DNA of 64,000 bases from Sporosarcina koreensis. GTDB taxonomy: Bacteria > Bacillota > Bacilli > Bacillales_A > Planococcaceae. Within the stretch, counting starts at the first letter, position 1. Each line of letters opens with the position of its first letter. The stretch spans positions 20,891 through 84,890 of the forward strand of contig NZ_LQYA01000198.1 in assembly GCF_001531445.1 (NCBI RefSeq), read 5' to 3'. Position numbers and translations under genes: made by a program. The notes under the pieces are model-generated. The model searched no databases. It saw only the letters and a list, made by a program, of their open reading frames with translations, and had not been told where the DNA came from. This document shows positions 178 to 15,908 of the stretch, in pieces.

Positions 178-212
178 ATCCATCACCTCATTCATTTAAT
201 GGGAAACACTGT

Positions 213-337
213 TGATTGGAGCGGAGAGCGGCGACTCCAGCGGGAACAGCGTGAGCTGAAGACCCTGGACTGAGCGCAGCGAAGGAAGCGGCTGAAGCCG
301 TGCCTGCGGAACGCGTCCGATCGCAGTGGAAATCAAC
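213..337. repeat. GC-rich intergenic repeat with inverted ends
   Basis: A GC-rich block in an AT-rich setting, bounded by TGTTGATTGGAGC at the left and, as an inverted match, GTGGAAATCAACA at the right. The interior holds short inverted segments (AGCGGCTGAAGCCG and others), so the whole can fold as an RNA or cruciform. Similar blocks occur as dispersed repeats in Bacillaceae genomes, often near IS elements (recalled, not searched). No coding potential is credible. Confidence 0.55.
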
Positions 338-370
338 ATTTCTAACTTTATCTCTATTTTAAAAGGAAAA

Positions 371-414
371 AGACTGCAGGCAACACCAAAATTCAAGGTG
401 TTTGTCTACAGTCT
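371..414. repeat. Long imperfect hairpin upstream of transposase
   Basis: The left arm AGACTGCAGGCAACACC (371-387) pairs with GGTGTTTGTCTACAGTCT (397-414) across a 9-base loop. It lies between the GC-rich repeat and a terminator and may be the IS terminal hairpin region, but the element's exact end cannot be fixed from one copy. Confidence 0.45.
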
Positions 415-415
415 G

Positions 416-440
416 AACCCTTGATTATCAAGGGTTTTTT
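416..440. terminator. Rho-independent terminator
   Basis: Perfect 9-bp stem AACCCTTGA / TCAAGGGTT with a 3-base loop, followed by a T run on the + strand. It insulates the transposase end from the integrase remnant. Confidence 0.6.
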
Positions 441-469
441 CTTTTTCTCTGTTTCATCTGATTTCATAT

Positions 470-920
470 TTTATTTATCGAATTTAGTCAAAAGCGTATT
501 CAATGCGCATCTGTCAATTTACATTCTCATTAAATCAGCGAACTGGTACAAATTTATAAGCTACTTTTCTAATGTGTGTATTGTTGTTTAGTGTCATTTT
601 CATATCACTGTGTCCTAATCTATCTTGAACTTATTTTAGAGTACCAGCTTCTAATAATAATGAAACAATGTAGAAGACGTAATCCATGTGTTGTGATTGT
701 GCCTGGCCCGTATTTTTTCTGCACATGTGTAATTATTTCAATGTTTTGAAGCTGAACCAGCACATTACGTTCATTGCTATATAGAAGCTGTATTGGCTAT
801 AGTGTATAGAAACCAAGTTTTAAATAATCTTGTTTTGCTTTTTCTTCCACTCTTTTAACACAGCCAGTTTTTCGTCATGTATCTATTTCTTTTTGTGGTA
901 CAATTCGTTATTTTTACCTC
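470..920 (-). pseudogene. Decayed tyrosine recombinase (ICE/phage-type integrase), C-terminal half
   Basis: In broken reverse-strand frames one can read AKQDYLKLGF, then LLYSNERN, VQKKYGPGTITTHGLR and finally LLLEAGTLK-stop-VQDRLGHSDMKMTLN. These match the C-terminal catalytic domain of Tn916/phage-type integrases, including the HGLR and LGHSD boxes around the catalytic residues. Several stops and frameshifts, and loss of the N-terminal half, make it non-functional. It marks the left side of the 1-15.7 kb island as a former integrative element. No attachment site or tRNA was found beside it. Confidence 0.75.
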
Positions 921-1098
921 GTAAGGGGGCTTATTGTGTATTTCATTTGCTGTAAAGTTCAAGTAATCCCATATAAGAGCTAAAGCTTCATAGGATAAAA
1001 TAAATTTTGTTTATTTTGAATATAAGGATATATATTACTTATGTAGGATTATAATGTTAATATATACATATTAATTACTTATATATACGGAGGTAAAA

Positions 1099-3519
1099 AT
1101 GAATCTATTAGATTTAGTATCAAAAGAGCAACTTCTTAAGTATTATAATCTTCAACCCAAAACAGAACTCGATTGCTTTGACTTTAAAAGAGAGTTTAGT
1201 GTTAAAGGTAGTTCAGGTATAGAAATGGTCAAGGATATAGCCGCCTTTGCAAATAGTAAAGGAGGAACAATTATATTCGGTGTTACAAATGATTTTGAGT
1301 GGATTGGACTCGGAGAATCCAGTGACTCAGATATTGATGAGGCCGAAATAAATAAACTATGTGAAAAGTATATAGACGGAAAAGTAAATCTATCAATGGG
1401 TTTATATGAGATCGAAGAGTTGGAATTTCTAATAATGTACATTGAAGCTTCTTCAGAAATTTTACCTTTTAAAATTATTGGTCAATACGTAAAGAGTAAT
1501 CGAAAAAATAAACAACAAGACAAAATTGTTTTTCGAGAAGGTGATGTTTTTTGTAGACGTGGTAGCCGAAGTATGAAAGCTAACTCACTCTTCTTTAAAC
1601 AAAAAAAAATGAATTTCGAATTGCTCCATAATCTACCAAGTCCGCCTTATCATGATTTTATCGGTCGGAATAATCAGATAGATAAACTTCATGACTTGTT
1701 GATGCATAAAAACACCAGATTATTACAAGTTAATGGAATAGGAGGAATCGGTAAAACATCCTTAGTTTATTATTACTGTGAATTGCTACAGAAAAAAGAG
1801 TTTAATCATGATTTTGAATTTATTATTTGGATGAGTGGAAAACGCACTTATTTTACACCGAATGGCGAGAGAAAAATTAGTGATTTTATATCCTCATATC
1901 AAGATGTAATAAGCGAAATTTATAACTTTTTTCACAGAGATAAAATAAATGATGAAAATTCGGATGATTATGGTGATACTTTAATTGAAGTGCAGAGATT
2001 ATTAGAAGAATATAAAATACTATTGGTAGTAGATAATTTAGAGACACTAATAGAAGAAGAGCTTATCAATTTTTTATTTAATATACCTTCGAATAGTAAG
2101 GTAATACTAACAACTAGAGAATCTATTGCTGATTTTCAAATGAGTATAATAACTTTACAAGGGTTTGAAGAAGATCAGGAATTTATTGATTTTCTTGAAA
2201 GAGAATATTCAAGAAGAACTGAAGATTCTTTTTCCGAATTATACGGTAAATACGCATCGGAAATTTATAAGTATACCAAAGGAATGCCGCTAGCTATTCA
2301 GCTAGTAGTTAATCAATTATCTTTAAACGCAGATATTAAAATAATTATACGGAGCCTTTCTAGGGGTAATACATACAACTCGCTTCTTGAGTTTTGTTTT
2401 ATGGGCGTAATAGAAAGGTTAAATGAAGTTCAAAAAAGCGTGTTATATATATTAGCCCTTCCAGAAGTTGAACATTTTTTTACTATAGAAGACATAAATT
2501 TAATAGCTAATTACACGGATGACGATATTATGTTAGCTTTACAACAGTTGTCAAACTTCTCACTTTGCTATAAGGAAAAGCGAGAAGATGAGCGAGCTAG
2601 TTATGCAACACCCCATTTAGCAAAGCTTTATATAAGGGATTTCAAGTTTGAAAACGCTAAATTGTTGATAGAAAGGTATAGTGAATATTCACGTGAAATT
2701 ATTCAAATTGCATCACACAGTGAACAATATATAAAGAAAACTGGTGCAAAAAACCATAGCGAAAAAATGGCAGCTTCAAAGATGGCTAATATAATGATGG
2801 TTTATTATAATCATGGTTATAATGAAGCAATGAAAATAATTGATAAATTAATTAGTGAAGTACCTCAATTTGGATATCTGTACTTTCAAAAGGGTTTTAT
2901 AGAAAAAGAAGCAAAGATTACAAATTATAAAGAAGAGACAAATAAAGCATTTAGTATGGCTACAAGATTAAGTCCAGATCAAATATTTTATTGGATTGAA
3001 TGGGCCTACTTTGCTTATGATGAAAAGCAATATTTCCAGAGTAAAAAATACTTTGAGGAAGCATTAAGACTTGATTCAAAATCGACTAGAGCTAACCATG
3101 GTTATGCAAAGACTTTAGCAACCTTGTATAAGAAGGGACGAGTATCACTAAATGATGCTCAAAAGGCAAGAGAACATTTTGAATTAGGTTATCATGAAGA
3201 ACGTAATATAGTTTCTGAGGAACAGCAGGCAAATGCAATTAATGCACATGCATTTAGTAAGTTTTTATATTCAATCAATGATTTGGAAAATGCACTAAAA
3301 GAATGTGAAAGGGGTCTAAGATGCCAACCTTACAACGATAGGCTGAAATCTTTAAAAGGAGAAATAAAAAAGGCTAAAATTAATAAGAGTAAACCAGATA
3401 AACCTTCAGTTTTTGATAAAAAACAAAGAATGGAACCATATTCAAACTCTATTAAAGATAACATATCATCAAAAGATAAAGCCAAGCTAGAAACGCTTGC
3501 AAAACAACTTGATAATTAA
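1099..3519 (+). CDS. AlbA_2 (Schlafen-type) - STAND NTPase - TPR protein, putative defence protein
   Basis: The 806-residue protein starts with an AlbA_2/Schlafen-like domain (about residues 15-150, including DIAAFANSKGGTIIFGVTN). An NB-ARC/STAND NTPase module follows: Walker A GIGGIGKTS near 214-222, Walker B ILLVVDNLETL near 307-317, and VILTTRE near 335. Degenerate TPR-like helices occupy about 560-750. This effector / NTPase switch / repeat-sensor order is the plan of antiviral STAND proteins such as Avs. Here the N-terminal domain would be the effector and the repeats the sensor, both by inference. The GGAGG at 1089-1093 decides the ATG. The gene is AT-rich, monocistronic, and sits in an island with an integrase remnant. 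A transcriptional regulator role (AlbA_2 proteins) is the main alternative. Confidence 0.8.
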   Translation: MNLLDLVSKEQLLKYYNLQPKTELDCFDFKREFSVKGSSGIEMVKDIAAFANSKGGTIIFGVTNDFEWIGLGESSDSDIDEAEINKLCEKYIDGKVNLSMGLYEIEELEFLIMYIEASSEILPFKIIGQYVKSNRKNKQQDKIVFREGDVFCRRGSRSMKANSLFFKQKKMNFELLHNLPSPPYHDFIGRNNQIDKLHDLLMHKNTRLLQVNGIGGIGKTSLVYYYCELLQKKEFNHDFEFIIWMSGKRTYFTPNGERKISDFISSYQDVISEIYNFFHRDKINDENSDDYGDTLIEVQRLLEEYKILLVVDNLETLIEEELINFLFNIPSNSKVILTTRESIADFQMSIITLQGFEEDQEFIDFLEREYSRRTEDSFSELYGKYASEIYKYTKGMPLAIQLVVNQLSLNADIKIIIRSLSRGNTYNSLLEFCFMGVIERLNEVQKSVLYILALPEVEHFFTIEDINLIANYTDDDIMLALQQLSNFSLCYKEKREDERASYATPHLAKLYIRDFKFENAKLLIERYSEYSREIIQIASHSEQYIKKTGAKNHSEKMAASKMANIMMVYYNHGYNEAMKIIDKLISEVPQFGYLYFQKGFIEKEAKITNYKEETNKAFSMATRLSPDQIFYWIEWAYFAYDEKQYFQSKKYFEEALRLDSKSTRANHGYAKTLATLYKKGRVSLNDAQKAREHFELGYHEERNIVSEEQQANAINAHAFSKFLYSINDLENALKECERGLRCQPYNDRLKSLKGEIKKAKINKSKPDKPSVFDKKQRMEPYSNSIKDNISSKDKAKLETLAKQLDN

Positions 3520-3671
3520 TATTTTTTTATATTTATAGCAACTATGATCGCATATTCACTTTATGCAACTCAATTGGAAACGGTGTGAAATTTACAAGGA
3601 AAGCGAAAAGTAATTTTCAATATATCAAACAGTAAAGTGAAGAAATGGAAAAGATATTACTAAATCGAATG

Positions 3672-3710
3672 GAGGCATAAATTCCCTTAAAGAAGATTTA
3701 TGCTTCTTTT
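3672..3710 (+). terminator. Terminator downstream of the STAND gene
   Basis: 11-bp stem GAGGCATAAAT / ATTTATGCTTC with one G-U pair, followed by TTTT. It lies 150 bases after the STAND stop codon. Confidence 0.5.
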
Positions 3711-4430
3711 ACTTATTATCTAAAATGGATCCTGAGTGAGCTGACTGATTCGATTGACACCACTTATTTATGAATTGTTGTATATCCCCTATAGCTATTG
3801 TCAAAAACGTTGAACTTATTAAAATATATATTGCTGACTTTCATAGTATATTTAATCTAGAAGAGAGGAGAGAGGATTTGGCGCTTTAGTTATTAACCCG
3901 AAAACCTCCTCTATCTGTAAAGAATATTGGTGCACTTTAGCTTTCATATATATTAGGGTTCGTAATTTGCGTAAGTCCCCCAAAAAACTGACACCCTTCG
4001 TCAATGCGTCGCTTACATCAGTTTTTAAGGGGATCTGGCTTACAAGCAAGTTTTCCTCCTGGTTCAATTTGAAGGGGTTAGCGTTTCAAACCATGTTATA
4101 TATGACATCTTGTTGCCTAAGGAATCTTAATGGGGACAACGTTACCGTTAATACCTCCCTGCAAGAGCTGTATACAAGTCCCGAGCGGATATGTATCTAG
4201 TCCTTAGAAGTGTTTACCGAGCCTGTGGGCGTTGAGGATGAAGAGAGGAAAGCAGTGAAACATGTTGTCTGTTTGAATCTATTGGAGAGAATAACAATAA
4301 CAAAAGGGATTACATGTATAAGTTGATAATACGCACAAGACCCTCTATTAATGTGTGATGGCCATTGTTTTGAGAATAGTTAAGTTGTAAGCCTTTGTTG
4401 ATGCTTAAAGAATATCTTAATTTACAATTG
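3711..4430. other. About 700 bases without a recognisable gene
   Basis: Short frames exist on both strands (3852-4067 reverse; 3967-4311 forward if a TAG at 4198-4200 is read through), but none resembles a family I know and no convincing ribosome site precedes them. Base composition is less AT-rich around 3960-4260 than in the flanks, so this may be a decayed fragment of a transferred gene. Confidence 0.35.
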
Positions 4431-5051
4431 CTATGTGATACCGAATCGCTTCCGTTGTGCCGTTGTCATAAATTTTGACACAAACTTTAGATCAATTGGA
4501 CTAAGTTTGGCGATTTGTTCTTGTTCTCTCTCTTTTCTTAAACTCACCTTAACAACACTTTTAAATGCTTGCTTTCCCATATCATCGAGTGTTGGGTAAA
4601 AGTTGTGTAAATGCTTTAATTGATTAGGTGTTAACTTACCGTCTTTTTTAATTTGTTCTGCAATACTTTTATAAAATGTGTTGTTTGAATTAGCTAATCT
4701 TTTATCTAGTGCTTCACTCAAAATCTTTTTAAGATATTCGTTTTTATCCTTGGCCAAACGCTTACCATCAACAAGGATTCCCTTTGTGTCATAGAAATCA
4801 TTTTTAAAATCGTTTGTGAATTTCTTGATACATTCCGAGCCGACAACCATTATTTTTCTGTTCGAACTATTCACAATGGTGTATTCATAGCGGATTTCTT
4901 CATGGTTACATAATTCACACTCTGCTTCACAATATTGATTGTCTTCTAATCCATTATAAAGCCATTCTTGACGTGCTTTATGGAAGTCCTCTTTTTCTTG
5001 GCTCTTTTTAAATAGGTTTTCCATTGCACGTTTTAACCAACTATTACTCAT
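4431..5051 (-). CDS. Uncharacterised Cys-cluster (probable zinc-binding) protein of mobile elements
   Basis: A 206-residue soluble protein. Near residues 41-80 it has CEAECELCNH followed about 30 residues later by VGSECIKKF. This gives a CxxxCxxC-type cluster plus a distal Cys that looks like a treble-clef or rubredoxin-like zinc site. Proteins with this CxLC...GSECI pattern turn up in phages and plasmids with no assigned role (recalled). The rest is charged and helical. The longer frame would begin with a GTG inside the GGAGGGG ribosome site, so the ATG at 5051 is the start. It stands alone between two gene-poor stretches. DNA binding is possible but not shown. Confidence 0.6.
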   Translation of the reverse strand: MSNSWLKRAMENLFKKSQEKEDFHKARQEWLYNGLEDNQYCEAECELCNHEEIRYEYTIVNSSNRKIMVVGSECIKKFTNDFKNDFYDTKGILVDGKRLAKDKNEYLKKILSEALDKRLANSNNTFYKSIAEQIKKDGKLTPNQLKHLHNFYPTLDDMGKQAFKSVVKVSLRKEREQEQIAKLSPIDLKFVSKFMTTAQRKRFGIT

Positions 5052-5356
5052 TGCTATCCCCTCCACACGTTTCTTGAGCTAACAAGGTATAATAATTTCC
5101 TCTCTAGTTATTTGGTCTATTCCCAAATAACTGAAAGTTATTTATATAATAATTCTAGCATAGTAGAATTCTGTTTAATAGAGAAGTAGTAAATATACAA
5201 CAAATTGGAAATATCCTGGCTGGACTCCACCCCATGCAGTACACTTATTCACTTTTTCAAAGGAATAAATCGCAAGTAAAGGTGACTTTTATAAAAGAAA
5301 TGTTTATGTCATTTGCGAAGACAGATATCTATTCTAATGCTATTACTAGACTTTTT

Positions 5357-5392
5357 AAGAGTAAGAGTAAGAGTAAGAGTAAGAGTAAGGGT
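5357..5392. repeat. AAGAGT hexanucleotide tandem repeat
   Basis: Five perfect AAGAGT units and a sixth variant unit. A 65-codon frame crosses it and would encode a Ser-Lys run, but that frame has no ribosome site or family match, so the repeat is treated as non-coding. Confidence 0.85.
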
Positions 5393-5578
5393 ATGGGAAT
5401 AAAAAGCATTGATTTGCTAATAAAATCATAGAAAAACGACGAAAAGAAAACTATATATTAATGGATATATATGAGCTATAGCATACGTAATGGGGACTGT
5501 AGCTTTTTGTCGTTCACAATTATTAGTATAGAGCCTGTGTTTTTCATAGCGTACCTTTAAATTTACCAGTAACAGTCG

Positions 5579-5683
5579 TTAGGCCCCATTGTTAATCTGC
5601 ATTAAAGTAAGTTCCGCTATCTCTTTTACAAAGATAGAATGGTGCGAGATGCGGATTGAGCGTAGTAATGCACCTAACTGCAT
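5579..5683 (-). CDS. Possible 34-residue small protein
   Basis: A 34-codon reverse frame starting MQLGALLRSIRISHH and preceded by a perfect AGGAGGTG ribosome site at suitable spacing. No family is recognised. It may be the surviving start of a decayed longer gene, since similar coding character seems to continue past the stop. The rest of 5067-5881 has no gene that I can support. Confidence 0.3.
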   Translation of the reverse strand: MQLGALLRSIRISHHSIFVKEIAELTLMQINNGA

Positions 5684-5881
5684 CAAACACCTCCTAGTGC
5701 GTTTGATTATTGTTCATAATTGAGACTTTCTATAGGGACTTTAACATCCAGTATCTGTTATTGTATAGCTTCACAATGTATTTCATAGAATATTAATTAT
5801 TTCAGTCTAACAAGTTTTAGAAAAATTATGGTAAAATCTTGTTAAGTAATTAGATCCCATTTGATTGAGGTGTAACCAACT

Positions 5882-6340
5882 ATGAAATTATTCATATTTA
5901 ATCATCCATTGGGAGCACAAGCAATACGAGATGAAATACTTAAACCTTTAATTGAATCATTGGAATCTATTCCTTTTGAAATTAACAAGGGATGCGCTTC
6001 CAGCTTGCGTGAAACTATAAAGCGCCAGATTCAATTACAAGGTTGGTCAGGAGAAACCAGAGTTGATAAATCTAACAATATAACAATAACTTCAATGAAA
6101 GATAATATTGGCTTATGTTTACAAACTGGTAATGTAGGAAGATTCTATGCTGATATGCTTAAGCTTCAGACACTTTATTTAAACGGGAAAATTGATGCTG
6201 GAATATATATAATTCCAACAAATAATGCGGCTAAAAAAATGGGCGGTAATTTAGCAAATTATGAGCGTTTTATAAGGGAATTGGATTTATATAAAAAGAT
6301 TATAACAATACCCATACATGTAATTGGGATTGAAGACTAA
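5882..6340 (+). CDS. BglII-like restriction endonuclease fold protein, catalytic residues doubtful
   Basis: This 152-residue protein resembles the BglII/BstYI endonuclease family: IGLCLQTGNVGRFYADMLKL (from about residue 78), then NGKIDAGIYIIPT, and a C-terminal IHVIGIE strand. In active members the core reads roughly D-x9-E-x-Q (Asp84, Glu93, Gln95 in BglII). Here the corresponding stretch appears to be GLCLQ, so Gln is kept, Glu is replaced by Cys, and the Asp position looks like Ser/Thr. That suggests a dead nuclease kept for binding, or a changed active site. The protein is shorter than BglII (223 aa). It is the first gene of a four-gene operon; GAGGTG precedes the ATG and the next gene starts 14 bases downstream. 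Confidence 0.65.
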   Translation: MKLFIFNHPLGAQAIRDEILKPLIESLESIPFEINKGCASSLRETIKRQIQLQGWSGETRVDKSNNITITSMKDNIGLCLQTGNVGRFYADMLKLQTLYLNGKIDAGIYIIPTNNAAKKMGGNLANYERFIRELDLYKKIITIPIHVIGIED

Positions 6341-6354
6341 GGGAGGAAATTAGA

Positions 6355-7620
6355 ATGGAGTTAGGCTGGTCCTATCCTAGAAGAAGAGAAATAATTGATA
6401 AATTGAGAGCTAATGTAGTGGTAGATCAAAATAGACATCCTATTAACTTTCAAAATGAAAGAACATTTTTCCCTATATTTAAAGTATCTATAGATATGCC
6501 GAGATACCGTTTGTCAAATGGACGAACGCAAGCGGCACAAGAAGAATATTACACTATGCATGATTTGCCAGAAGATTTCTTTGAGAGAGATATTGAATCT
6601 GAAGATGCACACATAGCACAGCATGATATTTTAAAAACACAGTTAAAACATACTGGCATAGATTTACTTGATTACTTTACCAAGAATGGCCAGGAGGAAC
6701 CGTTAATATTGGATAATAACGGTTTTGTTGTTAATGGGAATCGCAGATTACGTGCAATGAGGGAATTACATCAAATAGATAGTGGTAATGGAATACTGCC
6801 ACCAAAATTTTCTCATATTGAAGTTATTGTTCTTCCACCATGTTCGGAAGAAGATATTCTTGAACTTGAAGGTAAATTACAAATCACCGAGGATATAAAA
6901 GCTGATTATGATTGGACTTCAGAAGGGTGTATGTATCGAGCCCTCCGAGATAAAAAGCATTTTTCAACTGAAAAAATTGCTGGTATTTACGATAAGAAAA
7001 AAGAATACATTGAGGATTTAATTCTTTTATTAACTTATGTGGATGAGTATCTTGAATCACGTAACCTTCCAAAACAATACCATCAAATTCAGGATGATAA
7101 ATTTGCCTTTGAAGCAATTGTTAAAGGTAGGAAAAAATTAGACGACGAAGATAAGAAGGATATTTTCCAAACTATTTCCTTCTCGGTTTTAGATCCAGAT
7201 CATCGTTTACCAGGTATGGGTAGACTACATGGATTCATTCCTAAAATTGCCGAAAATATTGATACTATTATTGAAAAAGCACAGCTAGAGTTTCCTTCAG
7301 AAGAACAAATTGAATTGAATGATGTCGGTTTAGATGATGGATTACTTGGTGATAGTTATTTTGAAGAAGACTTAATCAACTTAGCACAAACTCTGAATAA
7401 GGAAGAAAATCGTGAGAACGTAGTACAAGTAGTAAAGGATGTCATTGACGCTGAGGATGATAGAAGACAACGGTATACTGTAATTCAAAAAATTCAACGT
7501 GCAAATACTCTATTACAAGATGCAATAAATATGTTTGATGATGATACTGAACGTGAGGGCATAGATTTGCAATTAGAATCTATTGAAACGCATGTTGCAG
7601 AGTTGAAGGGGAAGCTGTAA
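6355..7620 (+). CDS. ParB/Srx-like (GNRR motif) protein of the nuclease-helicase operon
   Basis: A 421-residue protein whose residues 105-150 contain PLILDNNGFVVNGNRRLRAM, the signature of ParB/sulfiredoxin-fold domains that bind or hydrolyse nucleotides (GNRR box). The C-terminal half is acidic and helical, with many DD/EE pairs, and may be a protein-interaction region. It does not look like a chromosome-segregation ParB, since no HTH or parA neighbour is visible. It lies between the BglII-like gene and the SNF2 helicase, and its stop codon is directly followed by the helicase ATG, so translation is probably coupled. ParB-like domains recur in phage-defence and DNA-modification gene sets. 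Exact function unknown. Confidence 0.7.
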   Translation: MELGWSYPRRREIIDKLRANVVVDQNRHPINFQNERTFFPIFKVSIDMPRYRLSNGRTQAAQEEYYTMHDLPEDFFERDIESEDAHIAQHDILKTQLKHTGIDLLDYFTKNGQEEPLILDNNGFVVNGNRRLRAMRELHQIDSGNGILPPKFSHIEVIVLPPCSEEDILELEGKLQITEDIKADYDWTSEGCMYRALRDKKHFSTEKIAGIYDKKKEYIEDLILLLTYVDEYLESRNLPKQYHQIQDDKFAFEAIVKGRKKLDDEDKKDIFQTISFSVLDPDHRLPGMGRLHGFIPKIAENIDTIIEKAQLEFPSEEQIELNDVGLDDGLLGDSYFEEDLINLAQTLNKEENRENVVQVVKDVIDAEDDRRQRYTVIQKIQRANTLLQDAINMFDDDTEREGIDLQLESIETHVAELKGKL

Positions 7621-9396
7621 ATGTTGCATATTGAATATTTAGCGGATATACATTCAGCTCGAATAATAACTGATGATGAGCAACATATTGGATGGCATGA
7701 ATTATGTAGAACTTGTAAGGAAAATGGAGAAGATGTTTCTTTTGACACTACAAAAACAATTACAATGCCTTGGTGGTCGTTTTTATCTACACGCCCCTCA
7801 ATTAATAGGATTGTGCGTAAGAATAAAATAAAACTTACTGCAGATGAAGAAGCAACTAGGTTGTTAAGGTTATCATTGGCTAGGGAAAGAACGTATCAAC
7901 AAGCAAGTGAAGGAGTTCAAGAGTTTTCCGAGGAAGAAGTAAAGCGCTTATTAACTGAGAAGGGGTTTCAGCGGAGACTTACACCCCAACAATTACGTAA
8001 TGTGACGAGGCTAGCATCACTTACAGCAGGGGCAACATTTTCAGTTCCTGGTGCTGGTAAAACAACTGAAGGGCTAGCTTTATACTGTATAAAAAAAGAA
8101 GAAAATACAAAACTTCTTATCGTTGCACCAAAGAACGCCTTTACGGCTTGGGAGGAAACACTAAGTATATGTATGCCTGAAAGCTCTAATGTAGTTCGAT
8201 TACGAGGGGGCTCAAGAAACGTAGCTCAATTATTGCAAGGTAACCCAGAAATTATGGTTATTACATATCAGCAACTTCCTAATGTTTTAACAGAAGTGGG
8301 GTCTTATTTAAGTACAGTTCCATTTTTTATGTATTTAGATGAAAGTCATAGAATTAAGAGAGGTAATAGTGGAGTTTATGGCAAAGCTGTTTTAAGTTTA
8401 GCCCATTTACCAGAACAAAAGTTAATAATGTCGGGAACACCGCTTCCAAATTCAACAGAAGACCTTGTTTCACAATTTAACTTTCTGTATCCAGAAGTGA
8501 AAGTTGATAAGGATTCTGTGGTGGGACATATACGTCCAGTTTATGTAAGAACAACCAAGAACGAATTAGGTCTGCCGCTTCCAAGATATTACTTTACCCC
8601 TATACAAATGAGTCTAGCACAACGTAGGTTGTATAATTTAATGAGAGATGAAGAATTACGTCAAGCAGAAATTTATTTAGCTCGGGATAGGAACAAATTA
8701 AGGACAATGGGTAGGAGTGCATTACGGTTACTACAAGTAGCTTCCAATCCATCTTTACTAGCAAACAGCGATTTCCAACACCATGAATTATTAAAAGATG
8801 TTTTACTGGAAGGAGATAGCCCGAAAATAAATTACATTTGTTCTCGTGCAAGACAGCTTGCGAGTGAAGGTAAAAAGGTAATCATTTGGTCAACCTTTGT
8901 CGAAAGTATCGAACAAATATCAAATAGGTTAAGAGACTTAGGCGCTGATTATATCCACGGTGGAGTTGATTCTGGTAGCGAAGATGTTAGCGATACAAGG
9001 GAAGCGAAAATAAAAAGGTTTCATGACGATCCAAACTGCTTTGTAATGGTAGCAAATCCAGCAGCAGCTGGGGAAGGGATAAGCCTCCACAAAGTTTGCC
9101 ATTATGCTATTTATTTAGATCGTAGTTATAATGCGGCGCATTTTCTACAATCAGTTGACCGGATACACCGATTAGGATTATCTCCAGATCAAGAAACAAT
9201 TGTAGAAATGATTGTTTCACCAGATAGTGTAGATGTCTCAGTTCATAGGAGGTTAGAAAATAAAATACACGTAATGTCTGATGTACTAAATGACGATTCC
9301 ATTATGATAGAGCCTGAGTATGCAGACGAAGAGATAGATAATGGATTAAACGATGATGATATTCTAGACTTTATCAATCATTTGCGAGGACAATAG
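7621..9396 (+). CDS. SNF2-type helicase/translocase
   Basis: A 591-residue superfamily 2 ATPase. Visible motifs in order are Walker A SVPGAGKTTE (about 141-150), LLIVAPKNAFTAWEE (Ia), YLDESHRIK (DEAH-type motif II, near 238), MSGTPLPNS (III, near 270), VIIWSTFVESIEQI (IV), ANPAAAGEGISL (V) and QSVDRIHRLG (VI, near 514). Spacing fits SNF2/RapA-type DNA translocases, which pump duplex DNA without full unwinding. In a defence operon it would couple ATP use to scanning or remodelling of target DNA for the nuclease partners (inference). The ATG abuts the previous stop codon, and AAGGGGAAG within the upstream gene acts as ribosome site. Confidence 0.85.
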   Translation: MLHIEYLADIHSARIITDDEQHIGWHELCRTCKENGEDVSFDTTKTITMPWWSFLSTRPSINRIVRKNKIKLTADEEATRLLRLSLARERTYQQASEGVQEFSEEEVKRLLTEKGFQRRLTPQQLRNVTRLASLTAGATFSVPGAGKTTEGLALYCIKKEENTKLLIVAPKNAFTAWEETLSICMPESSNVVRLRGGSRNVAQLLQGNPEIMVITYQQLPNVLTEVGSYLSTVPFFMYLDESHRIKRGNSGVYGKAVLSLAHLPEQKLIMSGTPLPNSTEDLVSQFNFLYPEVKVDKDSVVGHIRPVYVRTTKNELGLPLPRYYFTPIQMSLAQRRLYNLMRDEELRQAEIYLARDRNKLRTMGRSALRLLQVASNPSLLANSDFQHHELLKDVLLEGDSPKINYICSRARQLASEGKKVIIWSTFVESIEQISNRLRDLGADYIHGGVDSGSEDVSDTREAKIKRFHDDPNCFVMVANPAAAGEGISLHKVCHYAIYLDRSYNAAHFLQSVDRIHRLGLSPDQETIVEMIVSPDSVDVSVHRRLENKIHVMSDVLNDDSIMIEPEYADEEIDNGLNDDDILDFINHLRGQ

Positions 9397-9398
9397 TT

Positions 9399-10253
9399 AT
9401 GTCATTTTCAGTTGGTATTCTCTATTCTGTTCAGAAATTTTTGTTCTTCATTAACGAAACGGAAATTAAAGCAACGGAATTTTCCATCGCTTTCAATAGG
9501 TATGAATCGACTTCTTCGCAATTGGTATTGGAAGTAGCTGAAGGGTGTCAATGGATTCAACTTGATTTAGAAGGCAATCTTTCCGTTACTGCAAAAGGAA
9601 AGGAAATTCTAACACAAAGGGATATGCTCTATGCTTTAAGAGTACAATTAAAACATTTAATTGAAATGGTTAAACCATCTTGGTCATACCTTATTCATAA
9701 AGGGAGAAAAGAAGCCTTTCAATATTTCCCTTCCGATGTTAAGCAATGTTTCAAAGAAGCCGAGTTAATCAATTCATATAATAAAGATGTAATAAAATGG
9801 TGGGATATTCTCTCGTTGGCAGTGAGGGGACAGCAAAAAGATACACTGATGGAAATAGGAAGAACTGGTGAAGAATTGTCTTTGGAATATGAAAGAAACA
9901 GAGTGAAGAAAGAACCAATTTGGCAATCTATTGAATCAAATTTATCTGGATTTGATATATTATCAGTTGTTAGCTTGGAAGATTTGACACCATTGCGAAT
10001 TGAAGTAAAAACGTCAACTAGGGTTTCAAATTCATTTAGCTTTTATCTATCAAGAAATGAATGGGATGTAGCTGAAGTATCTACTAATTTTCTGTTTCAT
10101 TTATGGTTATTAAGTGATACCCCTGAGCTATTTATTTTGGATAAAAACGAGATGGTTAATCATATACCAACTAACTTAGGTAATGGTTCTTGGGAGAATG
10201 TAAAGATAACCTTTTCGCTGAAAGAGTTAAATAAACTAGATAAAAAGGAATGA
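9399..10253 (+). CDS. DUF3883/NOV-type PD-(D/E)xK nuclease-like protein
   Basis: A 284-residue protein. The C-terminal half carries GRTGEELSLEYERNR, then GFDILSV and RIEVKTS (near 200-206), and SFYLSRNEWDVA. This is the E...D...ExK layout of DUF3883 (Protein NO VEIN C-terminal) domains, which belong to the PD-(D/E)xK nuclease-like fold. The N-terminal 130 residues have no family that I recognise and may bind the partner proteins. It starts two bases after the helicase stop and is the last gene of the operon. If the BglII-like protein is inactive, this is the likeliest nuclease of the set (inference). Its stop codon lies inside the terminator stem that follows. Confidence 0.75.
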   Translation: MSFSVGILYSVQKFLFFINETEIKATEFSIAFNRYESTSSQLVLEVAEGCQWIQLDLEGNLSVTAKGKEILTQRDMLYALRVQLKHLIEMVKPSWSYLIHKGRKEAFQYFPSDVKQCFKEAELINSYNKDVIKWWDILSLAVRGQQKDTLMEIGRTGEELSLEYERNRVKKEPIWQSIESNLSGFDILSVVSLEDLTPLRIEVKTSTRVSNSFSFYLSRNEWDVAEVSTNFLFHLWLLSDTPELFILDKNEMVNHIPTNLGNGSWENVKITFSLKELNKLDKKE

Positions 10254-10273
10254 TTTTTCAATCATTCCTTTTT
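10242..10273. terminator. Bidirectional terminator shared by two convergent defence genes
   Basis: Perfect 14-bp stem AAAAAGGAATGATT / AATCATTCCTTTTT with a 4-base loop. T runs on both strands serve the operon on the left and the AIPR gene on the right. The TGA at 10251-10253 is within the left arm. Confidence 0.9.
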
Positions 10274-10359
10274 ATCAGGCAATTTCTCTCTAATGTATAA
10301 TGTTATAAGTATTTTTAATCAAAACACTCAATTAATAAAATGATAATTTATTTCAAGTG

Positions 10360-12132
10360 TTAATAATTATTTTGGAGTATATCTTCAAGATGATTTTTAA
10401 ATTTTATTTGTATCAACTTTCTTGTATTAGAAAGCGCAGTTGAACTCCGGAAAGTACGAAGAGCATATTCTAGTATATCAATACTATGTAATATTTCTAA
10501 ATTGTGATTTTTCACCATATGAAGTATATAAAATGCTTTTTGGTCTGAAACTGAATAATTCGAAGACTTATAATCCATTTTTATTCTTTCAGTAGATTTA
10601 ATTAACTCTAATACTGTATCAAGATTTAAGTCATCTGGGAATATATCTGAATAAAACTCGTTAAACAATTTTTTCTTTTGACTACTAACTTTTTCTGGAT
10701 TTCCTTTAGAGGCATAAATGATTTGAGCCAATTCTGCCATATCAATTCGAAGCTCTGGATTTTCAATTTCATTTCCAATATCTCCAGCTTTACGTGCATA
10801 GATGATATTATGTTGTTTTAAATGTTGTTCTATTTGAATTTGAATTTTACTAATGGATTTCAGATTCATATCTGAAATTGAATTCTGACTATTAGTATAT
10901 TCAGCGATTAAATTCTTAAGATCACTATTAGTAGGAACTTTATATAACCTGAGTAGAACAAAAGATGTGAAAATAGGAGTTAGAATGCTGTTAATTTCCT
11001 CATCACTTTTATTATCCAATTCAATACTGTTAATAAAAGTGAAAATTGAGGAAACAGTTTGCCCACCGTTGACAATTTGGAAATTAGACAAGCTTACATC
11101 GAATTTATTTACTTGCCTAACAGATTCAATTGTTTCAGCAATCATAGTGACACCATTATTAAACAGGAAAAAATTATCAGGTGATTCTTTAAGGGTATCT
11201 ATTATTTTTTTATTATAAGGTGTTTTTCCTAGAAATCCACGGACATTATCGTAAAGTAAAGATTGATCCATTTTTAATTTATGAGTGTTTTTCCACTTTT
11301 CGAATAAAGGATTTTTCTCATTAGGGAAATCGCTATTATCACAAGTTATTCGAATGAGTTCATTAATAGGAAGCTTAACAATTAAAGAAAGACTTGTAGT
11401 TTGAGCATCTAAATTAAATGAAATTAAGTCTTCTTGGGGGATAATAAATCCAGCTCTCTTGTTTTGATTTCTATAATCATAAAAGCCCATTATTTCGTCT
11501 AAAGTAATACTTTTAATATGGACGTTATAAAGTTTTTTTAAGCTTTCAATATAGTGAAGGCTATTTTCATGAATACCATTATTCTCATTTGAAACCATAT
11601 ATAAAGTTATGTTACAAATATACTTACTTTCACTATTAGTATATGTTTTTAGTATGTTTAGTATTTTGTGTGTGTATGTATTAACACTTTCATCTAAATT
11701 ATTATCATCAGCAAATAAAATTTCTAAAAACTTTATACTTCTATTTATATCTCTATCACCAATATGACCGTCACTAAAGTTTCCTCTATATTTAAAATTA
11801 AATAAATTAATATCTACCTCAGAACTAGATAATTCAGATATATTTACAATATCTATCCCATAGTCATCCATTTGTTGGAAATTCAAGTCGCGAATCTTGT
11901 TTAAATAATTTACATCGATAATTTGTGTTAGTTTACCTTCAATGATTTCAAAATCATTGTTTTCTAAATCAGCTTGGAACCCTAATACATTTTCCATTAT
12001 AAGATGATAGAACCCATATCTAGCGGTATTTATATCATCAAGATTTAATTCATCAAGTCTTTCTTTCAATAAAAGCTTAATTAACTTTTTACTATTGTCT
12101 CGAACAATTTTGTAGTCATTTAATGTTGCCAT
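10360..12132 (-). CDS. AIPR-family abortive-infection / phage-resistance protein
   Basis: This 590-residue protein carries the AIPR signature: FLFNNGVTMIAETIE (about residue 326) followed by NFQIVNGGQTVSSIFTFIN (about 355), then an acidic helical C-terminus. AIPR proteins are named after abortive phage-resistance loci and often neighbour restriction-modification, Z1 ATPase or PD-(D/E)xK genes; their biochemical activity is not settled. A GGAGGG ribosome site fixes the ATG at 12132. It faces the helicase operon across a shared terminator and lies upstream of the restriction-enzyme remnant, apparently in one transcription direction with it and with the XRE gene. The gene is AT-rich like its neighbours. 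Confidence 0.85.
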   Translation of the reverse strand: MATLNDYKIVRDNSKKLIKLLLKERLDELNLDDINTARYGFYHLIMENVLGFQADLENNDFEIIEGKLTQIIDVNYLNKIRDLNFQQMDDYGIDIVNISELSSSEVDINLFNFKYRGNFSDGHIGDRDINRSIKFLEILFADDNNLDESVNTYTHKILNILKTYTNSESKYICNITLYMVSNENNGIHENSLHYIESLKKLYNVHIKSITLDEIMGFYDYRNQNKRAGFIIPQEDLISFNLDAQTTSLSLIVKLPINELIRITCDNSDFPNEKNPLFEKWKNTHKLKMDQSLLYDNVRGFLGKTPYNKKIIDTLKESPDNFFLFNNGVTMIAETIESVRQVNKFDVSLSNFQIVNGGQTVSSIFTFINSIELDNKSDEEINSILTPIFTSFVLLRLYKVPTNSDLKNLIAEYTNSQNSISDMNLKSISKIQIQIEQHLKQHNIIYARKAGDIGNEIENPELRIDMAELAQIIYASKGNPEKVSSQKKKLFNEFYSDIFPDDLNLDTVLELIKSTERIKMDYKSSNYSVSDQKAFYILHMVKNHNLEILHSIDILEYALRTFRSSTALSNTRKLIQIKFKNHLEDILQNNY

Positions 12133-12142
12133 AATTCGTCCC

Positions 12143-12460
12143 TCCAGAATTTAATCTACGTCTATACCAACTACTAATACTGGAATATCTAAATTAGAAA
12201 CTCCTCGATTTTTTAAGTCCTAAATAATTTGTTCATGGAAACTCCTGTAGACACATCTGAAGAAGTTTTCAAAGGGATAATTTCAATTCCTAAATTAATA
12301 TATCCTTGTGGATGAAAAATCTGCATCTAAAGCGTACTTTCCAGATTGAACCTGGGCACCTAGTTTGTTTTTACGAAATCCTTCCTCGAAATGCTTTTGT
12401 TACGGACATTTCTGGGTGGGAAGGATTATAGATTGCATTGTGTTTTTACTTATCCCATAC
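12143..12460 (-). pseudogene. Decayed BglII/BstYI-type restriction endonuclease
   Basis: Broken reverse frames can be pieced together as GFRKNKLGAQVQSGKYALDA, then YINLGIEIIPLKTSSDVSTG, and DLKNRGVSNLDIPVLVVGID ending at a stop. This order and spacing match the core and C-terminus of BglII/BstYI-family enzymes (KNxxGxEVQFGKYA, GIEIVP, DIPVLVIGI). At least two frameshifts, internal stops, an apparent Glu-to-Gln change in the active-site strand and loss of the N-terminus make it inactive. It lies between AIPR and a controller-like XRE gene, with a methyltransferase beyond, which is the normal layout of a type II system. Confidence 0.7.
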
Positions 12461-12578
12461 AAGTGGTTTTAATACTAGTAAGTTATATAGTTATAGGTGC
12501 TTATTTGTTGTGTAGTTCAATAGACCTCTTTAAATTCCTTTGAGTAGTTGTTTACAAACGAATACACTGCACCCATTA

Positions 12579-12818
12579 TTAGTCATCCTTTTTCTTTAGT
12601 AGCCCGTCAACTGAAACAGATAGTATTTCTGCAATTGCTACTAATTCAATGTCAGTTACTTCTCTTGTTAGATTTTCTATTTTTGATATCATAGGTCTAT
12701 CTAAGTTAGTCCCAGAAGTAAGTAATCGTGCAGAGAGTTCTTCTTGTGTGATATGCTTTTCTTTTCTAATTCTTTTTAGGTTTCTACCTATTAAATTTCG
12801 GTTATTTATACTCATCAT
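12579..12818 (-). CDS. XRE-family regulator, restriction controller (C protein)-like
   Basis: A 79-residue single-domain helix-turn-helix protein: residues 10-65 contain LKRIRKEKHITQEELSARL and MISKIENLTREVTDIELVAI, a lambda-repressor/XRE fold. Size, sequence type and position (divergent from the methyltransferase, upstream of the restriction-enzyme remnant) match C proteins that time restriction against methylation in type II systems. The intergenic region of about 100 bases would hold its operator, but I see no clear paired C-box. MM at the start gives two possible ATGs (12818 or 12815). Confidence 0.75.
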   Translation of the reverse strand: MMSINNRNLIGRNLKRIRKEKHITQEELSARLLTSGTNLDRPMISKIENLTREVTDIELVAIAEILSVSVDGLLKKKDD

Positions 12819-12852
12819 ATTTAAGACACCCTATTTTAAAAGTTATGTATAT

Positions 12853-12881
12853 TTGATTTTAGTACAAAAATAATGTTAAAA
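12853..12881 (+). promoter_or_regulatory. Promoter of the DNA methyltransferase gene
   Basis: TTGATT at 12853-12858 and TTAAAA at 12876-12881, separated by 17 bases, upstream of the TTGGAGG ribosome site. The promoter overlaps the more upstream ATG at 12873, which supports translation starting at 12918. Confidence 0.5.
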
Positions 12882-12917
12882 TGTGTTATAACCACACATT
12901 TGGAGGTTTTCGTAAAA

Positions 12918-14396
12918 ATGTTAAATCCTGTTAATGATTTAGATATGGTAAATTTAAATGAATATATAAATGCTAGTTCATTATTTATAAAAGAATACTT
13001 CTCTAATCACGAGCCATTTGTTGATTTAATTGTTACTTCCCCGCCATATTGGGATATGAAAGAATACGGAGATGTAAAAGAACAAACAGGCTTTGGTCAA
13101 GAATATGAAGCTTATTTGGCGGATATAAGAAAAATTTTTGAAGGAGTACATCATATTTCTAAAGATAGTGCTACGATGTTTGTTATTGTAGACACAATGA
13201 AACGGGACGGAAAAATGGTAAGATTGCCAGATGATATAGCTAGAGAGCTTGAAAGTATTGGTTGGATACATCAAGATACTATTATTTGGGATAAAGGAAA
13301 AACTTTGCCTTGGTCTAGAAAAGGGCAAATGCGGAATGTATTTGAGTATGTCTTAATGTTTACTAAAGAAAACTCTACAATTTATAAATATTATATCGAT
13401 AGAATTAAAACTACTGAACAATTAAAGGAATGGTGGATAGATTATCCTGAAAGATACAGTCCACAAGGAAAAGTACCTGATAATATTTGGGAGTTTTACA
13501 TTCCAACTCAAGGTAGCTGGGGAAGTAAAAAAAAATTTGGTGAAGAGGAATTTAGACATGCTTGCCCATTCCCACCAGAAATGATGGCAAGATTAATTTT
13601 ACTTTCAACGGATGAAAATGATGTTGTATTTGATCCATTTGCTGGCACAGGAGTTTTCCTTGCTACTGCTGAAAAAATGAATCGTAGATATTTAGGTTTT
13701 GATACTAACCCAGATTACAAAAAAGTATTTGAAGTTGTAACTAAGCAATTGATTGAAGAAAAGTGGGTAGAAATTGACACTTATTATAAATACCAGGAAC
13801 GTTTAAAAACAATTTTAGAAGAATCTATCTATAAATTAAGGGTGCTAAAATATCCAAAGGCGGTTGTAAAAAGACTTAGAAATGAGAATAAAAAAAATGT
13901 TGATTTAGTTCCTAATGACTTTGGTTTAATTATCGCTATTGAAAAGGAACTTCCAGAAAATGAAGTTGTTTTAAAGAATAAAACAACTGGAAAAATAGAT
14001 TATTATTTTGTTTGGAATGATTCAGAAACATTAGAGCGGGCTAGAGCTCAAATTAATAATATTGTTTCAAAAGCTCCATTCACTAAATATGGGTTGATTA
14101 CTAACATAAATGTAATTACCATAGATGGGTTAATTGAGTTTAAGCATACTCTACCAACGAATTTAAGTTTATATTCTAATGGTAATACTTCAGATGAACA
14201 TTCTAAAGTTGAATTAGATAAGATAATTTTACTACTTCAATCTGATGGATTAGAATCGGCATTTGATAAAGATGTCCCTCCTGTAATAAGCAACATTTCA
14301 ATTAAATATAGTGATTATGAAATGTTACCTGCTGAAAAGTATGAAAAAAAGGGCTATAGCAAAGAGAATGATCAATTAAAACTAATTTTAAAATAA
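12918..14396 (+). CDS. DNA methyltransferase, beta class (TSPPY; N4-cytosine or N6-adenine)
   Basis: A 492-residue AdoMet-dependent methyltransferase. The catalytic motif IV TSPPYWDMKEYG comes first (about residue 38), and the AdoMet-binding FDPFAGTGVFLATAE comes later (about 237). This is the beta-class order, and TSPPY is typical of N4-cytosine enzymes such as M.BglII. The last 200 residues are an extension beyond the usual length with no motif that I recognise. With its endonuclease decayed it is effectively an orphan enzyme that may still mark host DNA. GGAGG at 12902-12906 fixes the ATG at 12918; the 45-base longer frame is rejected because it overlaps the promoter. The recognition site is unknown; a GATC-centred site is a guess from the enzyme family. 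Confidence 0.88.
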   Translation: MLNPVNDLDMVNLNEYINASSLFIKEYFSNHEPFVDLIVTSPPYWDMKEYGDVKEQTGFGQEYEAYLADIRKIFEGVHHISKDSATMFVIVDTMKRDGKMVRLPDDIARELESIGWIHQDTIIWDKGKTLPWSRKGQMRNVFEYVLMFTKENSTIYKYYIDRIKTTEQLKEWWIDYPERYSPQGKVPDNIWEFYIPTQGSWGSKKKFGEEEFRHACPFPPEMMARLILLSTDENDVVFDPFAGTGVFLATAEKMNRRYLGFDTNPDYKKVFEVVTKQLIEEKWVEIDTYYKYQERLKTILEESIYKLRVLKYPKAVVKRLRNENKKNVDLVPNDFGLIIAIEKELPENEVVLKNKTTGKIDYYFVWNDSETLERARAQINNIVSKAPFTKYGLITNINVITIDGLIEFKHTLPTNLSLYSNGNTSDEHSKVELDKIILLLQSDGLESAFDKDVPPVISNISIKYSDYEMLPAEKYEKKGYSKENDQLKLILK

Positions 14397-14398
14397 AT

Positions 14399-14420
14399 GG
14401 GGGCGAAAGCCTTCTTTTTT
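14399..14420 (+). terminator. Terminator after the methyltransferase gene
   Basis: Stem GGGGGC / GCCTTC (two G-U pairs) closed by a GAAA tetraloop and followed by six T. Confidence 0.6.
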
Positions 14421-14479
14421 AATTTAAAGTTATAAAAACATTACTTCTTCAAACTTTAAAAGATAGAGGTGAGGGGGCA

Positions 14480-14945
14480 ATTGTGCGGTCATTGTCCTTT
14501 GACGAAGACGACTGCTACCACTTCCACACCACGCAGAAAAGCTCAACTCAGGTTGGAGACAATTCCATGAACGCCAATTTGCTGGTGCTCAAAGTTGTTA
14601 GAATGGTGGGCAACTTTAATCGTCGCACAGTTTTGATCGAAATTTGATTGTTCGCCATGTTGAATGTCGAAGGCATTAGCCTTTGGGAATGCTTGGCCAT
14701 TCACGTACCTGCCGCTTTGGCCTGTCCTTTCAATCTGTACATAAGCGACGCCTTTTCTTTTTAGGTTCTTCTCTTGGGCATATTCGCTTCCTTGCCATCA
14801 TACCCATCGGCAAAGTGTCTTTCGCTTGCTTCGTTCCAGTGTTGGACAAAGTTATGGTGGACATCAACTAGACAAGGCCCTTTCAGTTCTATAAAGACAT
14901 CATGGTTTTGACAAAGGGAAAGTTTCCCTCCGTAGTGGGCTCAAT
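14480..14945 (-). pseudogene. Decayed phospholipase D-like gene
   Basis: The reverse strand reads [20 protein letters not shown] followed by [14 protein letters not shown], a stretch typical of PLD-superfamily (cardiolipin-synthase-like) proteins. After a frameshift it continues with ASLMYRLKG, then NAFDIQHGEQSNFDQNCAT and HQQIGVHGI. Stop codons and frameshifts throughout rule out a product. No ribosome site or start remains. Confidence 0.6.
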
Positions 14946-15028
14946 AAAATTCGTTATATCAGTAAGATATAATAAAAAAATGGCAATGGGAGAGGTTCAC
15001 CTCTTCCATCCAGCTGTATTTCATATCA

Positions 15029-15660
15029 TCATTTACTTTCAAAGTCACAATCATTAATGGAATCAACTTTATTTTTATGCTTAACTTCATAAATCAACCA
15101 AACGATCGAGAAAAGGGGGAGACCGATATAGGAAACGAGTGCGCTATTCCAATCGATTTCATCGCTCGTAAAGGCTTGGATTTTTTGTTCGGCAATGATG
15201 AAGATACATAGGACCTGGACCAACAAAGGACCGAATAGAAACCATTTTTCGCGATTAGGAAGATCCTACAGATTACCGCCTTGCGCAATATAAGGTTTTC
15301 TAAAACGGTAAAGACTGATTGCAATCCCAAGTCAAGTCAAAATCCAGCCATCCCCCATGCGTTTAATAACCAGCACCAAACTATACCGTCCCCGAATAAT
15401 GTGGATAGGAAGGCAAGGGAGCCGACTATTTTGAGGCGATCAACGAATTGAACCGGCAAGCCTCTTCATCCAACCCTTAGGACTTCGGCGCTTTCCCATT
15501 GTGCGCCAAATCCCAAAGCATACGTGTGGACGCATATATGAGTTACCCGCAGATATTATGGCCGTCAAAATGATGGTTCATAACGTAAGCAGCAAAAGTA
15601 AATCCAACCCGTTCAAGAAGGAATTGTGAAAGGACTGACAGAAACCGACCACTCAATAAT
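15029..15660 (-). pseudogene. Decayed amino-acid permease (APC/AAT family)
   Basis: The C-terminal frame (15029-15226) reads DWNSALVSYIGLPLFSIVWL and ends DCDFESK, as in AAT-type permeases. Upstream broken frames add LGIAISLYRFRKPYIAQGGN, LSTLFGDGIVWCWLLNAWGM, YASTRMLWDLAHNGKAPKS and FLLERVGFTFAAYVMN, in the right order for the C-terminal half of such a transporter. Multiple stops and frameshifts are present. With the PLD remnant it forms a graveyard at the right end of the defence island. Confidence 0.7.
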
Positions 15661-15908
15661 CGTGCATCTGTATATAGAGCTATCAATTTCAAACACCTCT
15701 TAAACTATTTAGATTTTGAAAATAATACGTTTTATGTCATGGTTTCCGTGTTTTAACGATCTTCTGAAACAATAGAAGGATAAAGAAATGCGAAACCTCG
15801 GTTATCGTTATGGGGTGGTAGATTTTTCATGTTGTAATTCATTTAGTTTTCTCCTTTCCAATATGCTAAACTTGTTGTCCGAAAGGCAATCAAGAAGGTG
15901 GAATTCAT

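Follow-up and report, generated by a model that had tools for sequence, protein, structure and literature searches.

A conserved cassette of a probably inactive BglII-like protein, a ParB-fold protein, an SNF2-type motor and a DUF3883 protein in Sporosarcina koreensis may form an ATP-dependent restriction-modification system

Within a 64,000-nucleotide stretch of a Sporosarcina koreensis contig (NZ_LQYA01000198.1; the whole stretch is referred to below as the window), four adjacent genes, here named A to D, encode a small BglII/BstYI-fold protein, a ParB-fold protein, an SNF2-type ATPase and a DUF3883 protein. The four genes recur as a unit in divergent copies, protein A lacks the catalytic glutamate of its family in all of them, and a DNA methyltransferase gene usually goes with them. 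Because of this methyltransferase, the cassette looks like an ATP-dependent restriction-modification (R-M) system. The features of the cassette in the window are the following.

5823 to 5881, plus strand: leader, at the start of the DNA homology with the copy in Lysinibacillus antri (L005; blastn).
5882 to 6340, plus strand: gene A, 152 amino acids, BglII/BstYI-fold, probably catalytically dead, proposed sequence reader.
6355 to 7620, plus strand: gene B, 421 amino acids, ParB-fold, proposed nucleotide-dependent clamp or adaptor.
7621 to 9396, plus strand: gene C, 591 amino acids, SNF2-type motor (Pfam; motifs GAGKT and SVDRIHRLG).
9399 to 10253, plus strand: gene D, 284 amino acids, DUF3883/NOV_C nuclease, proposed cutter (invariant site residues).
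10239 to 10276, listed for the minus strand: terminator-like hairpin of 17 pairs, overlapping the end of D.
12873 to 14396, plus strand: N4/N6-type DNA methyltransferase, 507 amino acids, proposed cognate modification gene (Pfam N6_N4 methylase, 1.2e-42; motifs TSPPY and DPFAGTG).

An earlier note on this DNA had described a four-gene operon with gaps of 14, 0 and 2 bases, and the list of open reading frames (ORFs) confirmed these gaps together with the coordinates and the plus strand of all four genes. The domain order that it gave (nuclease-fold, ParB-like, SNF2, DUF3883) was recovered with Pfam for A, C and D, and with a PHROG match and a fold comparison for B. The terminator that it had listed corresponds to the terminator-like hairpin.

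Including the window, 18 loci with a system-type A were collected and grouped into 13 clusters at 90% identity (the system clusters). Refetched contigs (L013-L014, L032-L034, L058-L062, L073, L074, L076, L078, L155, L164, L165 and L169-L173) were excluded from the counts, as was L153, which repeats L005; L157, L158 and L159 were counted as one cluster. B directly follows A in 12/13 system clusters, the exception being L067/L068, in which A is truncated. C and D come after B in all 10 clusters whose contig goes on; the contigs of L039 and L168 end at B. The adjacency that the earlier note had left to be counted in other genomes is thus a regular one, and its recurrence in divergent copies ruled out a chance arrangement of the four genes. 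Since the mean identities across systems are just 32 to 44%, the linkage of A, B, C and D appears to be old. Pairwise distances of the four proteins over 10 systems were correlated with r values of 0.83 to 0.96, which none of 5000 permutations reached; when L005 was omitted, r was 0.53 to 0.95, and at most 3 of 5000 permutations were as high.

A close copy was found in a scan of genome contigs that was built on one protein, and hence addressed close relatives, and that returned a single match, the Lysinibacillus antri contig L005. Its A, B, C and D proteins are 86, 79, 90 and 83% identical to those of the window. A blastn block joins window positions 5823-10307 to positions 6203-10695 of L005 at 82.8% identity, so that the DNA homology begins 59 bases 5′ of A and stops just past D. 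The other blastn matches between the two comprise part of the methyltransferase gene and an integrase-like piece. The methyltransferase gene is inverted in L005 and shares 73% DNA identity with that of the window over 854 columns. It is adjacent to D in L005, while an AIPR gene separates the two in the window. From this comparison, the operon and the methyltransferase gene would have moved together and been rearranged later.

Protein A matched Pfam Endonuc-BglII at 8.6e-15, which is over the cut-off. The best fold matches of its model (predicted local distance difference test [pLDDT], 91) were BstYI (2p0j) and BglII (1d2i), with a Z score of 22.4 and a root mean square deviation of 1.5 Å over 150 of 152 residues. 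BamHI and OkrAI came next, and the following row had a Z score of 5.8; the absence of a family from the fold listings of A and B does not exclude it. The alignment places MEFETGN of BamHI and IEVQFG of BstYI, enzymes with known catalytic residues, opposite LCLQTGN of A. At the site of the catalytic glutamate of the ExQ/ExE motif, A carries C in 8/13 system clusters (C79 in the window) and Q in the remaining 5/13, whereas the other BglII-family clusters have E in 13/13 (Fisher test, 2e-7 if the clusters were independent, which they are not). Two residues further on, system A proteins have Q and the others Q, E, G or A; all 13 system clusters retain Q, G and N of QTGN. In the tree, a branch with support 99/98 separates the system A proteins from the others, so that the glutamate was probably lost in a single event and the loss was then kept.

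The preceding acid is less clear-cut. An Asp nine residues before the glutamate (position -9) is seen in L150-L152, L154, L156-L160, L162 and L163, while system A proteins have T, F, Y or A there in 13/13 clusters and never Asp. Position -17 holds Asp in seven of the 13 system clusters and Glu in one, and the BglII-like protein of L041, a locus discussed below, also has its Asp at -17. Owing to these acids, the loss of Asp hinges on the alignment register, but that of Glu does not. D91 does not vary among nine A sequences, and the glutamate-keeping L150, L151 and L154 also have Asp at this position. A is shorter than BstYI, BamHI and BglII by about 50 to 70 residues. Judged by these residues, A is probably catalytically dead: the nuclease fold reported in the earlier note is present, but the glutamate that a working nuclease of this family would use is gone from every system cluster.

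For the other three proteins, the assignments of the earlier note were supported. B has no Pfam match over the cut-off and no PADLOC match; it matched phrog_620 (ParB-like) at 3.2e-5. Its model (pLDDT, 83, with the helical part less sure) gave ParB, Noc, KorB and Spo0J as best fold matches, with a Z score of 9.7 for KorB (8qa9) over 199 residues at 3.7 Å, compared to 7.2 for the first unrelated row. The P motif GxxR reads GNRR in 13/13, and this motif underlies nucleotide binding in ParB-fold proteins that bind CTP, ATP or GTP, according to the available part of a published account (PMC12704722). The model thus suggests a ParB fold with a ParB-like N domain in B, and we propose a role as a nucleotide-dependent clamp or adaptor; the binding of DNA or nucleotide that the note had assigned to B would fit this fold. 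C matched Pfam SNF2 (4.8e-20) and Helicase_C. GAGKT is kept in every system C examined, apart from a weak C-like match in L067/L068, and SxDRIHRLG occurs in most of them, as expected of the motor that the note had predicted. A single gene of L045 (1817-4891) encodes B and C as one protein of 1024 amino acids that both profiles match, with SNF2 found by Pfam, and this fusion independently supports a joint action of B and C. D matched Pfam NOV_C (7e-10), which we take to be the DUF3883 family. Its residues G154, E158, G184, D186, E202, K204 and E221 are invariant in 20/20 sequences, which is consistent with a PD-(D/E)xK nuclease and makes D the likely cutter, in agreement with the note. DUF3883 is termed a novel restriction endonuclease (REase) domain in the accessible text of PMC3710099. 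Searches of PDB sequences with B and D returned no meaningful match.

An N4/N6-type methyltransferase of one family was found in 11/13 system clusters. It lies no more than 160 bases from A or D in 10 clusters and directly 5′ of A on the same strand in eight. The same family adjoins BglII-like enzymes that keep the glutamate in L151, L152 and L154. By gene content, the cassette therefore looks like an R-M-like system and not like the free-standing four-gene defence operon that the earlier note had suggested.

The cassette is rare and patchy, and its sources are a Paracoccus plasmid, viral contigs and genomes. The B profile matched in 16/398 genomes of the class. Of its 19 matches, one stood at a contig end; in 15 of the other 18, an SNF2 gene was directly 3′ of B or fused to it, and the remaining three share a stretch with a B-C pair. 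The A profile matched in 5/398 genomes of the phylum. System-type A was present in two (the genome of the window and G755), and the other three contained BglII-like enzymes without B-C-D. Pfam BglII matches were obtained in 13/299 genomes of the class; the genome sets of these three scans overlap. A phage search with A of L069 gave no match, and a plasmid search with A of the window, L072 and L075 returned the Paracoccus record only. L174 was dropped, as it contains no system gene.

B-C was also observed behind proteins other than A. In five loci, on alphaproteobacterial plasmids (L007-L010) and a viral contig (L077), a protein of about 285 amino acids (protein X) stands before B-C-D; in L010, C and D are separated by a transposase gene. 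The four X proteins scanned matched the PADLOC REase_II model PDLC03501 at 1e-18 to 1e-21. A search for relatives yielded 18 records, 14 of them new, and nine relatives without B-C-D were fetched. In the eight annotated records of such relatives, all from plasmids, a cytosine methyltransferase lies alongside, and the two relatives scanned fit PDLC03501 end to end (1e-120 and 1e-149). (D/E)LK and its preceding Asp are kept in 9/9 of the unlinked relatives, while the X proteins linked to B-C-D have I in the E/D column and V or I in the Asp column in 5/5, with K kept (Fisher test for acid loss, 5e-4, with two near-duplicate pairs still included). All five linked X proteins have an Asp two columns earlier. 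A search of PDB sequences with X gave no match.

A relative of Sau3AI lies 5′ of B-C in four loci, directly before B in L051 and one gene away from it in L047, L055 and L056. It matches residues 313-508 of Sau3AI best (87 bits) and 99-184 weakly (18.5 bits). The C-terminal half of Sau3AI, a part that has also been solved alone (2reu), is non-catalytic, and the relative reads SIK or IIK at the presumed (D/E)xK site. Neither X nor the Sau3AI-like family matched the A profile, and by these alignments both seem to be without the catalytic acid as well. D is not present in the four Sau3AI-like loci. Here, C is a protein of about 850 amino acids with an N-terminal PLD domain, which Pfam recognized at 9e-9 to 7e-6 in all five long C proteins scanned (L042, L047, L049, L055 and L056), four of them over the cut-off; HSK and GSNN are common to all eight aligned PLD-bearing C proteins. 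L042 and L049 encode the PLD-SNF2 protein with no Sau3AI-like gene identified. Proteins of 754 to 795 amino acids are encoded between the Sau3AI-like gene and B in L047 (5064-7451), L056 (5081-7363) and L055 (8209-10473); those of L047 and L056 had no Pfam or PADLOC match. L162 and L163 are glutamate-keeping BglII-like genes that face the end of C in L047 and L051, with a C5 methylase alongside in L047.

A type III-like Res gene stands directly before B-C in L012, L053, L079, L080, L081 and L092, which come from an Enterococcus plasmid, a genome and viral contigs. The Res of L012 matched PADLOC REase_III, and the other five are 51 to 96% identical to it; in L081, C is split by an inserted gene. 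The nuclease motif PD...(E)xK is kept in 6/6 of these proteins. A prediction that the partner is intact wherever D is absent held for the type III-like Res (6/6) but failed for the Sau3AI-like partner, an exception that the PLD domain fused to C may explain. ParA-like ATPases are encoded 5′ of B-C with a long C in L042, L044, L046, L049, L050 and L052, together with an RHH protein in L046; a partition locus may lie next to the system here or form part of it. L041 encodes on one strand (2870-14988) a 392-amino-acid protein of unknown family, an McrB-like AAA protein, a DUF2357/PDDEXK_7 protein, B-C-D, a C5 methyltransferase and a BglII-like enzyme.

The cassette of the window lies among further genes.

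1099 to 3519: protein with Schlafen-AlbA_2, NB-ARC and TPR domains (Pfam; phrog_24039 at 2.9e-37), likely a separate STAND defence gene.
4431 to 5066, minus strand: 211-amino-acid protein of unknown family that includes the Cys-rich sequence CEAECELC (weak PHROG matches only).
10360 to 12132, minus strand: AIPR gene, AbiU-like (PADLOC, 3.7e-37), between D and the methyltransferase gene.

The AT-rich island, the STAND gene and the AIPR gene of the earlier note are all there: the content of G plus C per 2-kb step is 27 to 36% throughout 0-14 kb and 37 to 50% in all later steps. The note had also listed an integrase remnant and the wreck of an R-M system. The former finds partial support, in that positions 566-858 match part of an L005 ORF at 74% DNA identity over 301 columns (blastn), and this ORF looks like an integrase when its sequence is judged by eye. 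The latter has to be revised, since the supposed wreck includes the open 507-codon methyltransferase gene, which is probably part of the system.

Sequences and models show a conserved unit and the folds of its proteins, the missing glutamate of A, the intact sites of C and D, and the association with a methyltransferase. From these features, we infer an ATP-dependent, multi-subunit R-M system with an antiphage purpose, an interpretation that we consider moderately probable. A, a BglII/BstYI-type protein without its catalytic glutamate, would recognize a short unmethylated sequence. B would load onto the DNA and clamp it at this site by means of nucleotide binding, and would couple A to the motor. 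C would then translocate along the DNA as an SNF2 ATPase, and D would cut as a PD-(D/E)xK nuclease of the DUF3883 family. The methyltransferase would mark the sites of the host, so that A is not triggered by self DNA. The loci with other partners suggest a wider hypothesis, whose chances we put at about even: a fixed core of ParB clamp and SNF2 motor would be combined with type II enzymes that have lost catalysis and serve as plug-in readers (BglII-like, PDLC03501-type or related to the C-terminal half of Sau3AI) and with a swappable nuclease (a separate DUF3883 protein or a PLD domain in the same chain as the motor), which would constitute a new type of R-M system. The sites of BglII, BstYI, BamHI and Sau3AI all contain GATC; the readers may therefore share a core site, which we regard as a lead only.

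Several observations weigh against these proposals. Most of the evidence on A amounts to one evolutionary loss, and the Asp at -17 (7/13) and the invariant D91 leave A a possible catalytic acid. Since the catalytic acid is placed elsewhere in some restriction enzymes, A might still cut. No methyltransferase was found in the system clusters L039 and L071, that of the window is 2,619 bp away from D, and L067/L068 combine a methyltransferase with a dead, truncated A of 104 amino acids and lack B. No reader was identified in L040 and L043, which contain B-C-D and a C5 methyltransferase, or in L011, which contains B-C-D; on the opposite strand of L011, 1.7 kb upstream, lies a gene annotated as a restriction endonuclease, which Pfam assigns to DUF6415. 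In L041, B-C-D is followed by a C5 methyltransferase and a BglII-like protein in which D...ExE is kept. At the type III-like loci, B-C apparently serve an active enzyme, as the Res motif is kept.

Alternatively, A could be an active type II enzyme whose active site is unusual or displaced, and B, C and D could form a module of their own that accompanies ordinary R-M systems as a helper or back-up. The L041 gene, the intact Res proteins, the Asp 17 residues before the lost Glu and the sharing of one methyltransferase family with glutamate-keeping enzymes in L151, L152 and L154 would all fit this view. We nevertheless regard it as rather unlikely, because the glutamate site is C or Q in 13/13 system clusters, and because two families with no match to the A profile, found in or near its slot, seem to be acid-less too, which fits a replacement of the cutter.

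Another possibility is a block of invader replication similar to that of BREX or DISARM. Host DNA would then carry the mark of the methyltransferase, and A-B-C-D would halt or remove foreign DNA without cuts at defined sites, with D acting late or on damaged DNA. We scanned eight window proteins against 2023 PADLOC profiles, at the level of proteins only and without system rules. C matched motor models, among them parts of ZorD, DpdE, DrmD, DrmA and BrxHI/BrxHII, and a SNF2-DUF3883 fusion is reported for DUF499 R-M operons in the available text of PMC3710099; both points favour such a mechanism. Besides these motor matches, the scan of the eight proteins gave no marker of DISARM, BREX, Zorya or Dpd. 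It found neither DrmB (DUF1998) nor DrmC (PLD) of DISARM, neither ZorA nor ZorB of type I Zorya, and neither PglZ nor BrxC of BREX. As the DNA-recognition fold of A also points to site-specific action, we consider a replication block improbable. Instead of defence, the cassette might serve the regulation or maintenance of a mobile element, with B as a partition-like ParB and A as a DNA binder. This reading would agree with the fold of B, with the ParA-like genes of L042, L044, L046, L049, L050 and L052 and with the copies on plasmids or viral-labelled contigs, but it appears very unlikely, given that a phmmer search with the L046 ParA (E, 1e-5), which a distant ParA could escape, found none in 16 A-type loci including window positions 1-16000, and that restriction accounts better for the intact nuclease site of D and for the R-M partners.

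The earlier note knew of no named system of this composition, and this still holds for the PADLOC profiles and the open-access literature. In the same scan, A matched REase_II models and D matched PDC-S36, PD-T4-1 and TmtA; no matching composition emerged, and a named defence system was rejected as an explanation. No description of the cassette was found in the open-access literature (PubMed Central [PMC]), a search that left subscription papers mostly outside. A shares its fold with the BglII, BstYI and BamHI type II R-M enzymes and its methyltransferase family with glutamate-keeping BglII-like loci, but it is shorter, lacks the catalytic glutamate and has three more proteins attached. DISARM, Zorya and Dpd include SNF2-like proteins that C partially matches. 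SauUSI is a type IV, modification-dependent enzyme whose single polypeptide contains both a PLD nuclease and a helicase, comparable to the PLD-SNF2 variant of C; to our knowledge, it has no ParB-fold protein and no restriction-enzyme reader. The closest working analogue, by analogy of parts, is the CglI/NgoAVII group of ATP-dependent R-M systems. As far as the available text of PMC4267653 and PMC5737866 goes, these likewise combine a methyltransferase, an endonuclease and a helicase-like ATPase, whose ATP hydrolysis is needed for cleavage. They differ, when compared by description, in a two-protein endonuclease with a DEAD-family ATPase, and the same text mentions neither a ParB fold nor an inactive type II enzyme nor DUF3883. 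As in these systems, the motor is encoded with the nuclease in the cassette, C lying beside D in 10/10 clusters. SauUSI, too, is described as an ATP-dependent endonuclease in the accessible part of PMC7913695. R-M operons of the DUF499 type, related to BREX, also contain SNF2 proteins and REase-fold nucleases, some as SNF2-DUF3883 fusions, but they have a DUF499 ATPase core and BREX-like parts, and the portions available of PMC3710099 and PMC12839542 include no combination of ParB with a dead type II enzyme.

The proposed system would be new in two respects: recognition would be due to a type II enzyme that no longer cuts, and a ParB fold would stand between reader and motor. If this is true, a type II enzyme that works free of ATP joined an ATP-driven machine by giving up its active site in exchange for a motor and a different nuclease. 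This exchange seems to have been made with three different enzymes and would thus follow a general rule. Recognition and translocation would be linked in a new way, through a ParB clamp that is loaded at the restriction site, and the ParB nucleoside triphosphatase fold would gain a possible role in DNA restriction. The cassette would then represent a sequence-guided, translocating nuclease set whose reader is perhaps exchangeable.

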